A stretch of DNA of 54,717 nt. Source: Bacillota bacterium (GTDB taxonomy: Bacteria > Bacillota > UBA994 > UBA5500). The position numbers were made by a program, and so were the translations under genes. This document shows positions 5,582 to 52,050 of the stretch, piece by piece. The DNA is taken from positions 1 through 54,717 of the forward strand of contig JAAYHE010000031.1 in assembly GCA_012735505.1 (NCBI GenBank), given 5' to 3'. Position 1 is the first letter of the stretch, and each line of letters starts with the position of its first letter. A model generated the notes under the pieces. It did not search any database. It was not told where the DNA came from and saw only the letters and a program-made list of their open reading frames with translations.

Positions 5582-7780
5582 TCACCTCCGCTGTGCACCT
5601 GCTAGCGCCTTCTGCAAGCGCCACTGCAAGAGGGTATGGCGTTCTTCCACTTTGTTATTCTTAACCGCAAGGGCAATAGCCTTTTTGGTGCCCACCAAAA
5701 CGACCAATTTTTTGGCGCGGGTAATAGCCGTGTACAGTAGGTTGCGCTGCAACATGATATAGTGCTGCACCGAAATAGGGAGCACTACTACCGGATATTC
5801 GCTACCCTGGCTTTTATGCACCGAAATAGCGTAAGCCAAGGTCAATTCATCTAGCTCGGAAAAGTCGTAGGTGACAAGGCGCTCGTAACGCCCTTCAGGA
5901 AAGACGACGCCCACTTCATTCTCCTCGAGGTCGATAGCTTGTACGCGGCCAATATCGCCATTGAAAACTTGCTTCTTATAGTTATTGCGGGTCTGCATTA
6001 CCTTATCGCCTAGACGAAACAGCTGCCAACCTTGTTTGACTTCCGGCTTTTGTGCTGCCGGCGGGTTGAGCACCCGTTGTAGCTCGATATTTAAGTTGTC
6101 TACCCCGATGGGAGTGCGCCGCATAGGGGTAAGCACTTGAATATCTTCATACGGATGATAACCATAGGCGTTGGGCAGACGCTGTTGGCAGAGCTTGAGA
6201 ACCGTATCGAGGATTTTCATGGGTTCTTCCTCTTGGATGAAGAAGAAATCTTTACCCTTGACGTTAAGATAAGGGAATTCACCGCTGTTAACCCGGTGAG
6301 CGTTAACAACGATAAGGCTTTTGCCGGCTTGGCGGAAAATAGTTTTTAGGCGCACAGTGGGCACAGCCTCCGAATCGATAATGTCACGGAGCACATTGCC
6401 CGGCCCTACCGAAGGCAGCTGATCGATGTCTCCCACTAAGACTAGCTGGCAGTCGGGAGGAAGGGCCTTGAGGAAATGATACATGAGTAAGATATCGATC
6501 ATGGAAGCCTCGTCGAGGATGACCACGTCAGCCTCGAGGGGGTTATCTTCATTGCGCGCAAAAGCCATGCCCTGGCCTTCTACAAAGGCATATTCTAACA
6601 GACGATGGATAGTTTTCGCTTCACTGCCTGTAGTTTCCGACATGCGCTTAGCAGCCCGACCGGTAGGGGCTGCTAGCAAGACCTTGCGATTGCGATTGGC
6701 CATCAACTGGAGCAAGGAACGAACGATGGTAGTTTTACCGGTGCCGGGCCCGCCGGTAATGACGGTGACGCCGTTTTGGAGGGCCGTAACTAAAGCTTGC
6801 CGCTGCTCGGGAGCTAGGCGCAAGCGTTGCTCTTGCTCTAAGGCAGCTATCTCTGACTCCAGCCCCAGGTCTAACTCGAGCTGACGAGGCTGGCAACAGA
6901 GCTCCGCCAAACGGTTAGCCACCCCTTGCTCGGCATAAAAGAAGGGTGCTAAGTAAATTACTGTTTGGCCATCGATGTCAAGCAGAAAAACTTCCGTTTC
7001 AGCCTGTAAAATAGCGCAGGCCGCAGGTAGCAGGTCAGCATCGACTTCTAAGACTGCGGCGGCCTCCTGGTAAAATTCGGTTAGTGGGTAAGAAGTGTGG
7101 CCAGCGTCGGCCAGTTGCCCTAAAACATATTTGAGGCCAGCGATCAGCCGTGGAGCCGACTCGGGCATGAGCCCCAATGACTGGGCTAGTTTATCGGCAG
7201 TCTTGAAGCCAATGCCGAATACCTCATCGGCAAGGCGGTAAGGGTTGTCGCGAATCACTTGCGGCGCTTCGCTGCCATAGTGGCGATAAATGCGAGCAGC
7301 ATAGCCTGGCGAGACTCCATAACCCTGGAGAAAGATCATCACATCGCGAATCTCTTTCTGTTCGGCAAAAGCTTGGCCGATGGAGGCTGCTTTGGCCGGC
7401 CCGATGCCTGGAACCTCTACCAGGCGTTCGGGCTGGTTTTCTAATATATCTAAGGCTTGATGCCCAAAATGCTCGACGATACGCTGGGCTGTGACCGGGC
7501 CCACCCCTTTCACCAAGCCCGAGCCGAGATACTTGGCCAGGCCATCCAGGGTGGCAGGCACCATGGCCACGTAACTAGCTACCTTAAACTGCCGCCCATA
7601 TTCGGGGTGCACGCTCCATTCGCCCTGCATCCTCAGGGTTTCACCTACTGTGAGTTGGGGAAAGGTACCGACAGCGGTAACTAATCCTTGGTGATCGCGG
7701 CAGCGCAACCGCACTACCGAGTAAAAGGTTTCTTCGCTGCGAAAAGTAATGCGCTCGACGCTACCTTCTAGTTGTTCCAT
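5582..7780 (-). CDS. recD2: RecD2-type ATP-dependent DNA helicase
   Basis: 732 aa, the length of RecD2 helicases that lack RecB/RecC partners. The N-terminal OB-like region (VERITFRSEETFYSVVRL) is followed by helix-hairpin-helix segments around GLVKGVGPVTAQRIVEHFG and LVEVPGIGPAKA. The helicase core follows with Walker A TGGPGTGKTT, motif II DEASMID and QLVLVGDIDQLPSVG, and a UvrD-like C-terminus with YAISVHKSQGSE and LLYTAITRAK. Family role: 5'-3' unwinding in DNA repair. The ATG at 7780 has AGGAGGG upstream; the frame is open to 7855 without a better site. First gene of the competence operon, with a 4-bp gap to comFA. Confidence 0.95.
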   Translation of the reverse strand: MEQLEGSVERITFRSEETFYSVVRLRCRDHQGLVTAVGTFPQLTVGETLRMQGEWSVHPEYGRQFKVASYVAMVPATLDGLAKYLGSGLVKGVGPVTAQRIVEHFGHQALDILENQPERLVEVPGIGPAKAASIGQAFAEQKEIRDVMIFLQGYGVSPGYAARIYRHYGSEAPQVIRDNPYRLADEVFGIGFKTADKLAQSLGLMPESAPRLIAGLKYVLGQLADAGHTSYPLTEFYQEAAAVLEVDADLLPAACAILQAETEVFLLDIDGQTVIYLAPFFYAEQGVANRLAELCCQPRQLELDLGLESEIAALEQEQRLRLAPEQRQALVTALQNGVTVITGGPGTGKTTIVRSLLQLMANRNRKVLLAAPTGRAAKRMSETTGSEAKTIHRLLEYAFVEGQGMAFARNEDNPLEADVVILDEASMIDILLMYHFLKALPPDCQLVLVGDIDQLPSVGPGNVLRDIIDSEAVPTVRLKTIFRQAGKSLIVVNAHRVNSGEFPYLNVKGKDFFFIQEEEPMKILDTVLKLCQQRLPNAYGYHPYEDIQVLTPMRRTPIGVDNLNIELQRVLNPPAAQKPEVKQGWQLFRLGDKVMQTRNNYKKQVFNGDIGRVQAIDLEENEVGVVFPEGRYERLVTYDFSELDELTLAYAISVHKSQGSEYPVVVLPISVQHYIMLQRNLLYTAITRAKKLVVLVGTKKAIALAVKNNKVEERHTLLQWRLQKALAGAQRR

Positions 7781-7959: not shown

Positions 7960-8045
7960 AACCCTTGCCTACGCCAAGAGCCCCGCGGGTGGGCGTGTTT
8001 CAAAATGCCCCGCGGGGCGCCATGTCCATAGACCGCCTACAACAA
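7960..8045 (-). repeat. Dispersed intergenic repeat, module A copy (7.9 kb)
   Basis: On the minus strand this stretch has GGCGCC, then GGGCATTTTGAAAC, then GCCCACCCG, the same ordered blocks as the module A copy at 12378-12460 read on the plus strand. GC-rich, lies in the noncoding space between the recD2 start and the gene ending at 8302, and has no plausible reading frame. Part of the family described under the 50.5-kb copy. Confidence 0.55.
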
Positions 8046-12284: not shown

Positions 12285-12470
12285 ATATCGAGCAAAAGCA
12301 ACAGGCGCACCTTGGCCTCTTGCCTACGGCAAGAGGCCCGCGGGCTACCCCTATAAGCATCATGTTAGCGAGATGCGTAGGGGCGCCATGAAAAATGAAC
12401 AGCCCCCCCTGGGCCGGGCATTTTGAACCGTGCCCACCCCGGGAGGCCGTAGACCGACTGGGGAACAGCA
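12285..12470 (+). repeat. Dispersed intergenic repeat with stem-loops, module A copy (12.3 kb)
   Basis: Ordered blocks on the plus strand: GGCGCACCTTGG; a perfect stem-loop GCCTCTTGCC-TAC-GGCAAGAGGC (about 12314-12336); a weaker palindrome from CTACCCCTA to GTAGGGGCG; then GAAAAATGAACAGCC, GGGCATTTTGAA and GCCCACCCCGGGAGGCC (12378-12450). The last part is a near-perfect inverted copy of 50529-50606, and the front half corresponds to 51888-51997. No coding frame. Fills the metK upstream/degV downstream gap. Confidence 0.75.
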
Positions 12471-17879: not shown

Positions 17880-17998
17880 GGGGTGCACGCCTGGATGGTG
17901 AGGTCTGCAGGGCGTATATATCGGCCGGGGCTACCAGCGCGCAAGGATGACCGCAACGCCAGCGGCAAATAAAGCGCCCGAGCATGACTGCGACCTAG
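17880..17998 (+). repeat. Dispersed repeat, module B copy (17.9 kb)
   Basis: From 17929 the plus strand reads GGCTACCAGCGCGC, then AAGGATGACCGCAACGCC, then GGCAAATAAAGCGC. These blocks recur in order at 50793-50850 and, inverted, at 46065-46118. The upstream half (17880-17928) is weakly related to module A. Noncoding gap after the TetR gene. Confidence 0.6.
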
Positions 17999-19504: not shown

Positions 19505-19805
19505 TGACACCATGCACTTTACGGATGATACGCACCGCTGCTTACGTTTAGGCGGTGTGTACCCTAGGTGTTCCATTGCGGGCGCTCCGTATCTGTTGAA
19601 GTGACACAGAAGATGCCACTATGGTAGATGAACCTTTAAAAAAGGTTTGGTCAGGCAAGGTGATGATGCTACTCGCGTGACTACCTTCTACATAGAAGGT
19701 CTTCAGAAATAGCAGCATGTTGGCGATATCGTAGGGGCGTCTTGAAAAATGCACAGCCTCCAGCAGGGCATTATGAAACACGCCCGTCCGGGAGGCAGCA
19801 AGATG
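19505..19805 (+). repeat. Dispersed composite repeat, B-A copy (19.5 kb)
   Basis: GCACTTTACGGATGA (19514-19528) is identical to 46240-46254 (module B side). Bases 19561-19585 are an exact 25-bp inverted match to 51993-52017. Bases 19731-19798 hold GTAGGGGCG, GAAAAATG, AGGGCAT and CGTCCGGGAGGC, the module A core in the orientation of the 12.3-kb copy. Between them are small stem-loops (AACCTTT/AAAGGTT; ACCTTCTA/TAGAAGGT). No coding frame. Fills the gap between flgJ and the GNAT gene. Confidence 0.75.
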
Positions 19806-19826: not shown

Positions 19827-20090
19827 TCAGTTTTGCACCTTGTCAATGGGCACCGCCTCGAGCTGGCGGCTGAGCTGGCGGTAAAGCATGGCAGCCAAGC
19901 CAACATCCCCCGATTTGGCCATTTGCTCGGCTAGAGCTTCCCGCTGCATGTCTTCATAAATCTCACGTTGCATAGTCCGCGGAAAAACGCCGGTAGTAAT
20001 GCTCGATTGCATTTGTCGGAGCAAGATCTGCAGGAAAACTTGCTCCATGTCCTGACAACTTTTCCACAGCTGCCGCTGCTCGGCAGTCAT
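19827..20090 (-). CDS. flgJ: Rod-binding protein, FlgJ N-terminal domain (re-started frame)
   Basis: 87 aa: EQRQLWKSCQDMEQVFLQILLRQMQSSI and the following GDVGLAAMLYRQLSRQLEA match the rod-binding (FlgJ N-terminal) domain; no muramidase domain, as usual in Firmicutes. It helps assemble the flagellar rod formed by FlhO/FlhP. The original start is probably the ATG at 20155 (MRINPLRPQVAE), behind GGGAGG, but a 29-bp tandem duplication shifts that frame into a TGA at 20087-20089. That TGA overlaps the ATG at 20090 (ATGA), so translation may restart and give the protein without its first 12 residues. Confidence 0.8.
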   Translation of the reverse strand: MTAEQRQLWKSCQDMEQVFLQILLRQMQSSITTGVFPRTMQREIYEDMQREALAEQMAKSGDVGLAAMLYRQLSRQLEAVPIDKVQN

Positions 20091-20124
20091 TTCCGCAGCT
20101 GCCGCTGCTCGGCAGTCATTTCCG
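20067..20124. repeat. Perfect 29-bp tandem duplication inside flgJ
   Basis: Units 20067-20095 and 20096-20124 are identical, beginning CAGCTGCCGCTGCTCGG on the plus strand. 29 is not a multiple of three, so the copy number decides the reading frame of flgJ. Such repeats can gain or lose a copy by replication slippage. Confidence 0.95.
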
Positions 20125-44662: not shown

Positions 44663-44722
44663 CTTCTTCATCTCCCGCGTTAATTCTACTGACTCGTATC
44701 TCAGCCAACGGTAGCGTTAGGG

Positions 44723-44761
44723 TTGTGAAACTGCGAGGCTAATTGCCTCGCAGTTTCACAA
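44723..44761. other. Perfect 17-bp hairpin upstream of rpiB
   Basis: TTGTGAAACTGCGAGGC, loop TAATT, GCCTCGCAGTTTCACAA. All 17 pairs are Watson-Crick, in the 160-bp gap between the broken chemoreceptor gene and rpiB. No T run on either strand, so a large operator, attenuator or transcript end is possible. Confidence 0.7.
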
Positions 44762-44819
44762 CACCTTGTTTATTATATAGTACCGTTTCGTCATTATACA
44801 AGCGCACCCGACATCTAGA

Positions 44820-46064: not shown

Positions 46065-46280
46065 GCGCGCTATGGTTGATACACAACGGCGTTGCGGTCA
46101 TCCTGCGCGCTGGTAGCCAACGACTGTAGGTAAGAGCTCCGTCGCCAAGGGGAGCGGCCAGAAGTCTGAGAAGCCGCAACCTACTGCTGGCTGCTCCTTT
46201 ATCCTTGGCTCCTTCGCTCTTGGGATTTATGGCTCCCAGGCACTTTACGGATGACGCGCAACGCCCTGTTTAGCCAGGCC
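46065..46280 (-). repeat. Dispersed repeat, module B long copy (46.1 kb)
   Basis: Read on the minus strand it matches 50645-50850 block for block: GCGTCATC, GGGAGCCATAAATC, GCAGCCAGCA, GACTTCTGGCCGCTCC, AGCTCTTACCTACAG, GGCTACCAGCGCGC, CCGCAACGCC. About 200 bp of similarity with small differences. Bases 45909-46064 upstream and 46281-46363 downstream hold no gene; the latter has a faint module A trace (GGTTCATTTTTC). Confidence 0.75.
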
Positions 46281-49292: not shown

Positions 49293-50489
49293 ATGCCTCA
49301 GAATAGGACTATTTTGCATGTCGACTTAGATGCATTTTTCGCCAGTATAGAGCAACGCGATCACCCCCACTTGCGCGGGTTACCTGTCATTATTGGGGGC
49401 AAACCTGACCAACGAGGCGTTGTCTCGACCTGCTCCTATGAGGCCAGAAGGTTCGGGGTTCGTTCTGCTATGCCTCTAACGGAGGCCTACCGCCGCTGCC
49501 CGCATGGTGTGTTCCTGCCTGGTGATATGGCTAAATATCGAGCAGCTTCCCGCCAGGTATTTGCTATTTTCCATCGTTTCACCCCGGCGGTAGAACCCAT
49601 TTCTATTGATGAAGCTTTCTTAGATCTGACAGGATGCACAGGACTTTTTGGCGACCCAGAAACTATCGCCCGGAAGATTAAGGAACTCATTGTTAAGGAA
49701 GTAGGGATTACCGCTTCGGCGGGAATTGCTCACAACAAGTTCTTGGCGAAAATCGCTTCCGATCTGCAAAAGCCCGACGGCTTGGTATGGATCAAACCAG
49801 AGCAGGTAGAGGAAGTATTGCACCCCTTGCCTATTGAACGCCTATGGGGAGTAGGCCCCAAGACAGCTGCTAAGCTTAATAACCTCGGTATCCGGACTAT
49901 CGGTGACCTTGCGCGTTTTGACCAACAGCTGCTAGCGCGAGCCCTCGGTGCGGTTACTGCCCAGCAGCTGCATCAGCTAGCCAACGGGATAGACCAACGC
50001 CCCGTGCTAACCCAAGACGAAATCAAATCTATGGGGCACGAACACACCTTTGCCGAGGACACAGCAGACTTAGATCAGGTGTTAGCAGTGCTACTGCGCT
50101 TGTCGGAAAAAGTAGGCAGACGATTGCGGCGGGAAAAACTACAAGGCAGGACGGTGGCGTTGAAGTTGCGCTACCACGACTTCACTACCCTCACACGGCA
50201 TGCTAGCCTGCGGGAGGCAACTTCTCTAGATCAAGATATTTATCAAGCCAGTAGAAAGTTACTACTAAAGGTTTATAACGGGCAACCCATTCGCCTTATC
50301 GGTGTATCTGTGCAAAACCTAAGCCGTGGCGCCATACGCCAGCTTTCTTTCTTAGATGATGCGACCCATGCTAAGCAAAAAAAAATGGCCCAAGCCATGG
50401 ACCAAATCAAAAATCGTTACGGTGAAAATAGCATCACCTACGCCAGCGGCATCGATCTCATATCCAACCGGCCCGACAATGAGCCTTAG
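49293..50489 (+). CDS. dinB: DNA polymerase IV
   Basis: 398 aa Y-family polymerase: ILHVDLDAFFASIEQRD (catalytic Asp), VSTCSYEARRFGV, PISIDEAFLDLTG (catalytic Asp-Glu), TASAGIAHNKFLAKIASDLQKPDG, helix-hairpin-helix RLWGVGPKTAAKLNNLGI and the little-finger domain. A translesion polymerase. ATG at 49293 with GGGGAGG. The frame is open from 49209 but starts ahead of the promoter. No beta-clamp motif is certain at the end. Confidence 0.95.
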   Translation: MPQNRTILHVDLDAFFASIEQRDHPHLRGLPVIIGGKPDQRGVVSTCSYEARRFGVRSAMPLTEAYRRCPHGVFLPGDMAKYRAASRQVFAIFHRFTPAVEPISIDEAFLDLTGCTGLFGDPETIARKIKELIVKEVGITASAGIAHNKFLAKIASDLQKPDGLVWIKPEQVEEVLHPLPIERLWGVGPKTAAKLNNLGIRTIGDLARFDQQLLARALGAVTAQQLHQLANGIDQRPVLTQDEIKSMGHEHTFAEDTADLDQVLAVLLRLSEKVGRRLRREKLQGRTVALKLRYHDFTTLTRHASLREATSLDQDIYQASRKLLLKVYNGQPIRLIGVSVQNLSRGAIRQLSFLDDATHAKQKKMAQAMDQIKNRYGENSITYASGIDLISNRPDNEP

Positions 50490-50504
50490 CGCTTATATGT
50501 TTCG

Positions 50505-50850
50505 GCCTGGGGCAACTATTCCCTGGTCGGCCTGCGGCCTCCCGGGTGGGCGCAATTCGAAATGCCCAGCCCAGGGGGGCTGTTCATTTTTCTTGGCGCC
50601 CCTCTACAATAGCAATATGCCAGCTGTACCGCCTAACGCCCCCAGCTAGCGGCGCGTCATCTGAAAAGCGCATAGGGAGCCATAAATCAAGAGAGTGAAG
50701 TAGCCAAAGATAAAGAAGCAGCCAGCAATAAAGCAGGGCTCCCCTGACTTCTGGCCGCTCCTTTGGCGACGAAGCTCTTACCTACAGCCGCTGGCTACCA
50801 GCGCGCGAGGATGGCCGCAGCGCCGCGGCAAACAAAGCGCGCAGCACGAT
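50505..50850 (+). repeat. Dispersed composite repeat, fullest A+B copy (50.5 kb)
   Basis: Module A (50529-50606) is a near-perfect inverted copy of 12378-12453: GCCTCCCGGGTGGGCG, GAAATGCCC, GGGGGGCTGTTCATTTTTC, GGCGCCCCT. Module B (50645-50850) is an inverted copy of 46065-46280 and shares GGCTACCAGCGCGC (50793-50806) with 17929-17942. Noncoding; it fills the whole gap between the convergent dinB and nadC genes. Confidence 0.8.
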
Positions 50851-51711: not shown

Positions 51712-51843
51712 CCTATTACCCCCCTTGTTCTATAAAACAGTTTATATGAGGCCCACCTAGTAATCAAATTAGGGACACTCGTGTCCCAAGTCCTCCTTTT
51801 GGATATTAACCGCTTCCCAATCTTTTAAACCCGGTCGGACTGT

Positions 51844-52050
51844 GGCCTCCGGGCAGGCGCGATTCAAAAGCCCACATGGCTGTTCATGGCGCCCCTACAA
51901 GATATTGCATAATGTTTCGCACACCACGGCTGCTTGCAATATCTGTAGGGGCGCCCTGCCAGCTAAATTGCTATAAGCAATTTAGCCAAGGTGCGCCCGC
52001 AATGGAACACCTAGGGTTTGCACCGTCCAAACGCAGCAGGCATAACCGCG
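51844..52050 (-). repeat. Dispersed intergenic repeat with two stem-loops (51.9 kb)
   Basis: Module A trace GGCCTCCGGGCAGGCGCG, GGCTGTTCATGGCGCCCC (51844-51896). Then a long inverted repeat with 21-bp arms (GGCGCCCCTACA...GATATTGCA and its complement, 51888-51956, one extra A), a perfect 11-bp stem-loop GCTAAATTGCT-ATA-AGCAATTTAGC (about 51962-51986), CCAAGGTGCGCC, and a 25-bp exact match to 19561-19585. No coding frame. Confidence 0.75.

Follow-up and report, generated by a model that had tools for sequence, protein, structure and literature searches.

Several families of short bacterial repeats combine palindromic structure with an intergenic location. BOX, RUP, SPRITE, ERIC and Correia elements are gene-less, present in many copies and found between genes (PMC10969869). 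The first three, from Streptococcus pneumoniae, are predicted to fold as RNA; BOX and RUP also have inverted termini and are associated with target duplications (PMC3049150). In IS1272 and the IS1182 family, the target is a stem-loop that may vary in both sequence and size. The published model includes a 'pathway b' by which the stem-loop would be duplicated in full; in the IS1272 insertions observed, the stem-loop is replaced and no duplication arises (PMC5678879). Palindromic repeats can be targets in turn, as members of the IS110 family insert in REPs (PMC1525189).

The repeat studied here, module B, lies in a 54,717-nt contig (hereafter the window) of a Bacillota genome. Its anatomy is that of a MITE: the elements are short, carry terminal inverted repeats and lack a transposase gene, and many of their relatives in a second genome, G095, are flanked by target-site duplications, none of which was seen in the window genome. 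They resemble BOX, RUP, SPRITE, ERIC and Correia elements in being short, gene-less, multi-copy, palindromic and intergenic. They differ, in a comparison whose sequence side was made through Rfam only, in that a loop-containing core is common to families with different inverted ends and in that a whole terminator hairpin of the host, variable in length, makes up the duplicated target. Two features appear to be new, as far as non-exhaustive searches of Rfam, sequence collections and the literature reach: a loop-containing core that persists across families while the inverted repeats around it change, and the duplication of terminator hairpins in their entirety. A stem-loop target, as in IS1182 and IS1272, is seen for the G095 copies only, and these duplicate the stem-loop instead of replacing it. 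Like REPs and BIMEs, the present elements form palindromic mosaics between genes on which insertion sequences land, but they are much longer and have the conserved loop core and, in G095, the target duplications. We consider it likely, with a probability of about 80%, that module B is a non-autonomous, MITE-like element moved in trans by a putative hairpin-recognising enzyme.

Repeat modules of the window

A first-pass annotation had reported that seven gaps between genes share sequence blocks in both orientations. BLAST searches with module consensuses located the named blocks at all seven sites, with A and B matches on both strands (Table 1), and returned no A or B match from the reversed window. 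The order B then A is indeed the same at 19.5 kb as at 50.5 kb read in reverse, the B portion at 19.5 kb being a 33-nt end only. The proposal that these are partial copies of one composite element is not supported. Module B (~175 nt) and module A (about 100 nt) are mostly found apart, interleaved with hairpin repeats of two other kinds, C and D, which the first-pass annotation had not named, and the apparent composite is the focal B with the A that adjoins it, a module that is also found alone. A minority of copies share a recurring A-linker-B layout with a similar linker of 38-46 nt, and C adjoins 13 of 38 core-bearing host copies, 12 of the 13 agreeing in side and orientation. All four modules are independent repeats, joined into mosaics.

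Table 1. Repeat features of the window, with the matches that define them.
Feature	Position	Strand	Sequence	Evidence
Module B, focal copy, complete hairpin element	50651..50825	+		Consensus match 50652-50824, E 1e-57
Focal B, outer arms			GGCGCGTCATC / GATGGCCGCAGCGCC	
Focal B, core	50675-50799			Covariance model R1, 69.3 bits
Focal B, 5' core strand	50681..50705	+	Loop AAATCAA, stem P3, loop GARGGA (focal copy GAAGTA), start of stem P4	Alignments A1-A3
Focal B, 3' core strand	50765..50787	+	GGC-GACGAA-GCTC-TTACCTACAG	Alignments A1-A3; P4 pairs covary
Module A adjoining focal B, 47 nt off	50496..50603	-		BLAST
Module B, second complete copy	46088..46265	-		BLAST, E 3e-72
Second B copy, core	46112-46237			Covariance model, 78.9 bits
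Module B fragment, right arm only	17929..17963	+		97% identity over 35 nt, E 2e-11
Module B fragment, left arm only	19510..19542	-		85% over 33 nt, E 5e-5
Module A copy	12379..12468	+		86%, E 3e-23
Module A copy, diverged	19733..19800	+		75%, E 6e-8
Module A fragment	51830..51874	-		81%, E 3e-5
Module A fragment, weakest of the seven sites	7980..8013	-		79%, E 0.004
Module D, hairpin repeat	51940..52016	+	TATCTGTAGGGGCGC...GCGCCCGCAATGGAACACCTAGGG	84%, E 2e-17
Module D fragment	19562..19588	-		96%, E 1e-7

Searching the 1.92-Mb host genome with the 346-nt query gave 48 matches, which excludes a chance resemblance of GC-rich spacers, and a covariance model of the B core (R1) found 42 copies there. 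The further copies expected by the first-pass annotation are therefore present by nucleotide and covariance-model search alike. Beyond these searches, the analysis drew on the stretches of genome around individual copies. The focal copy (50.65-50.83 kb) is flanked by two convergent genes, whose ends are at 50489 and 50854. Elsewhere the window contains a 29-nt tandem pair at 20061-20118 (TTTCCACAGCTGCCGCTGCTCGGCAGTCA, 97% identical) and, between genes at 44722-44762, a perfect inverted repeat (18 nt, 5-nt loop) that is probably a terminator.

Relatives of module B are mobile in G095

Alignment of an 8-kb G095 segment (L050) with the congener G129 revealed two element-free sites in G129, each with a single terminator hairpin. 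At the corresponding G095 inserts, of 216 and 218 nt, that hairpin stands on both sides of the element, in copies of 25 nt and ~23 nt. When compared with a null of mismatched left/right flank pairs, direct repeats flank 14 of 40 G095-type copies at p<=0.01, with 0.4 expected, and 20 of 40 at p<=0.05. The duplications measure 17-41 nt, most of them fold into hairpins and a T-run often follows the right duplicate; a clear duplication is absent at about half of the G095 copies. Several copies have identical flank pairs (L065, L228), a sequence pattern that suggests recent insertion, and at L224 and L080 the duplicated hairpins differ in their loops with the stems kept. A third candidate empty site in G129 retains a remnant of an element end, which shows that an absence can also result from loss.

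In the window's own family, one copy in genome G003 (L114) is absent from the orthologous sites of G001 and G002, where a plain terminator is found. Beside the L114 element, at ~1740-1860, G003 has a C-like hairpin (GGGGCTGCGGGGCG...CACCCCGCAGCCC) where the other two genomes have the simple terminator. No target duplication above the null was detected in 45 copies from this family, including the window genome, and a hairpin split around the element is seen in a few copies only. The orthologous spacer of the focal copy in G002 contains a terminator hairpin followed by masked bases; because intergenic regions have diverged between genera, the window's own copies afford no clean empty-site reading. 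The mobile, non-autonomous element proposed at first pass is thus supported by G095 and by the element-free sites opposite L114. Of the signatures named with it, target-site duplications were seen in G095 only, and empty sites are found for G095 against G129 and for L114 but not for the copies in the window. We infer by extension that the hairpin-target rule of G095 also applies to the window genome.

A folded core shared between families

The B consensus forms one end-to-end hairpin of -105.4 kcal/mol (z -10.9), and the fold z values for three lineages are -10.9, -8.3 and -3.9. The outer arms are unrelated between lineages, with terminal inverted repeats of AATCGGTGTTAATCG / CGATTAACACCGATT in G095 and GGCGTTGCG..GTCATCC / GGATGAC..CGCAACGCC in the window genome (G000); the core and the fold are common to them. 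Within the core, stem P3 (GAGC/GCTC) is flanked by an asymmetric loop, with AATCAAA on one side and about ATYCCnACA on the other, and by a purine-rich 6x6 loop (GARGGA / GAMTGA) that the covarying stem P4 closes. Across 63 aligned sequences, hardly any change is seen in P3 or the purine loop, and the loop letters of the 5' core strand are nearly invariant between genera and families.

In the same 63 sequences, all seven P4 pairs are altered on both sides. The covariation score of P4 is 0.330, as compared with 0.138 in shuffled alignments and at most 0.131 in slid ones, and its changes occupy 67 cells, as compared with 15.7 when shuffled and no more than 38 when slid. Two biases apply: an alignment fitted to the P3/P4 structure favours that structure, and the shuffle control is inflated by the relatedness of the sequences. 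The stronger evidence is the slid control together with GC/CG, AU/UA and AU/CG pair exchanges. The signal is weak when only G095-type copies are considered. Along B, 25 host copies diverge unevenly, by 3-6% in P4/P5 and 19% at the tip, and in one loop positions with 0-8% divergence stand beside others with 44-56%. This pattern is unlike plain decay, and could reflect constraint during propagation rather than a host function.

R1 matched 9 of 398 phylum genomes in an even draw. The same core is carried by three related genomes of the window's family (G001-G003) and by a second family of the phylum, with 60 matches in G095, 4 in G055 and 1 in G129, the last genome being 81% complete; a third family has one weak occurrence. 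One of the two weakest matches, in G225 (30.6 bits), looks genuine, with the loop letters kept and the stems different. The other, in G250, lacks the loop letters and was judged a terminator-like match due to chance. The window has no match in Rfam 15 above the gathering score, and neither at that score nor at a relaxed E-value did Rfam yield a match at element positions, relatives included. Viral, plasmid and phage collections contained no match to the element; a looser pattern gave 58 viral loci, none of which was supported by the covariance model.

The first-pass annotation had named a repeated structured RNA as the alternative to a mobile element, for instance a regulatory or mRNA-stabilising hairpin that serves the host in the transcripts of flanking genes. 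The stable fold, the covarying P4 with its invariant internal loops, the uneven divergence within one genome and the position of copies next to gene ends are all in keeping with such a role. Where neighbouring genes are codirectional, however, the element is on the same strand in 11 cases and the opposite strand in 8 in the window genome, and in 9 and 12 cases, respectively, in G095; copies thus favour neither orientation relative to genes, and this tells against a role that depends on host transcripts. A rise from 1 to 60 copies between congeners, the patchy distribution in the phylum and clean insertions with target duplication likewise speak against it. We therefore regard a host-serving RNA as improbable; with the covarying stem and invariant internal loops of B, the structured-RNA reading partly merges with that of a mobile element.

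Hairpin targets and the putative enzyme

There is also a small chance that the elements are REP- or BIME-like and that a Y1 tyrosine transposase (RAYT) moves their hairpins in single-stranded DNA form. They are high-copy intergenic palindromes in mosaics, and their fold, in which unpaired positions are conserved, is similar to that of hairpins read as single-stranded DNA. Movement of REP/RAYT and IS200/IS605 elements is not known to duplicate the target, and duplications of 17-41 nt in G095 tell against this route. It is very improbable that each element is a large bidirectional terminator which arose in situ, with unrelated host terminators as its flanking hairpins. Gene ends around copies in the window genome are more often convergent (12) than divergent (5), and some flanks are terminator-like stems; in G095, however, the flanking hairpins are copies of each other and the hairpin is single at empty sites, so that this reading is contradicted there. 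A protein-coding role, prompted by an open frame in the B consensus, is dismissed since 1-nt indels between copies break the frame; consistent with the first-pass description, the copies (~175-220 nt for B-type elements) lie only between genes and have neither a gene nor a consistent reading frame.

For a MITE-like element moved in trans, the following route may be proposed. The enzyme would recognise the core in its folded form, either single-stranded DNA or RNA, and direct the element to a hairpin, usually the rho-independent terminator of a gene, as is read directly in the relatives. Staggered cuts on opposite strands at the two feet of the hairpin, followed by repair, would leave the whole target hairpin once on each side of the element, a geometry in keeping with duplications that match the hairpin in length. 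With a hairpin on each side, the host gene would keep its terminator and insertion would be cheap. The A/B/C/D mosaics of the window genome may likewise be hairpin repeats that have settled beside one another. If this proposal is right, the element inserts without breaking transcription ends, since the terminator on which it lands is copied, and dozens of copies in compact genomes would be explained; the G095 insertions would be direct examples of a stem-loop-duplicating route that had only been drawn as a model for IS1272. It is possible, though doubtful, that the elements represent a class of mobile hairpins in which the conserved, folded, loop-containing core is the recognition signal and insertion takes place at the feet of any terminator hairpin, duplicating it and so keeping the host genes punctuated. 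Were this so, both source and target would be read by shape and not by sequence.

An IS1182-type partner enzyme was considered and rejected. Unlike in the IS1182/IS1272 system, PF13751, the domain of that family, is absent from four of the carriers searched (G001, G002, G003 and G095); it is present in non-carriers, so its distribution does not track the elements. Exact arm matches in the single genome G095 revealed inverted pairs of the arm motif 2-3 kb apart: one encloses an IS110 gene inserted in the hairpin, and the other spans ordinary genes. The sole candidate for an autonomous partner among these was the IS110 gene, which had inserted into an element copy, and it was discarded. The covariance model R1 provides a means to seek further carriers and the enzyme.

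Individual G095 loci show other rearrangements. At L181 (2094-3314, G095:C82), an IS110-family transposase gene (PF01548, PF02371) lies within stem P4 of one copy, and the element hairpin is thus itself a landing site, a likeness to REPs and BIMEs. L183, L184 and L185 are palindromes of 49-57 nt that consist of the outer arms only, as internal-deletion derivatives, and at L051 (~7000-7260) and L061 (~550-800) the tips are replaced by one common unrelated sequence of ~130 nt. A TPP riboswitch (Rfam RF00059, 69.7 bits) is located at L055, positions 2823-2926.
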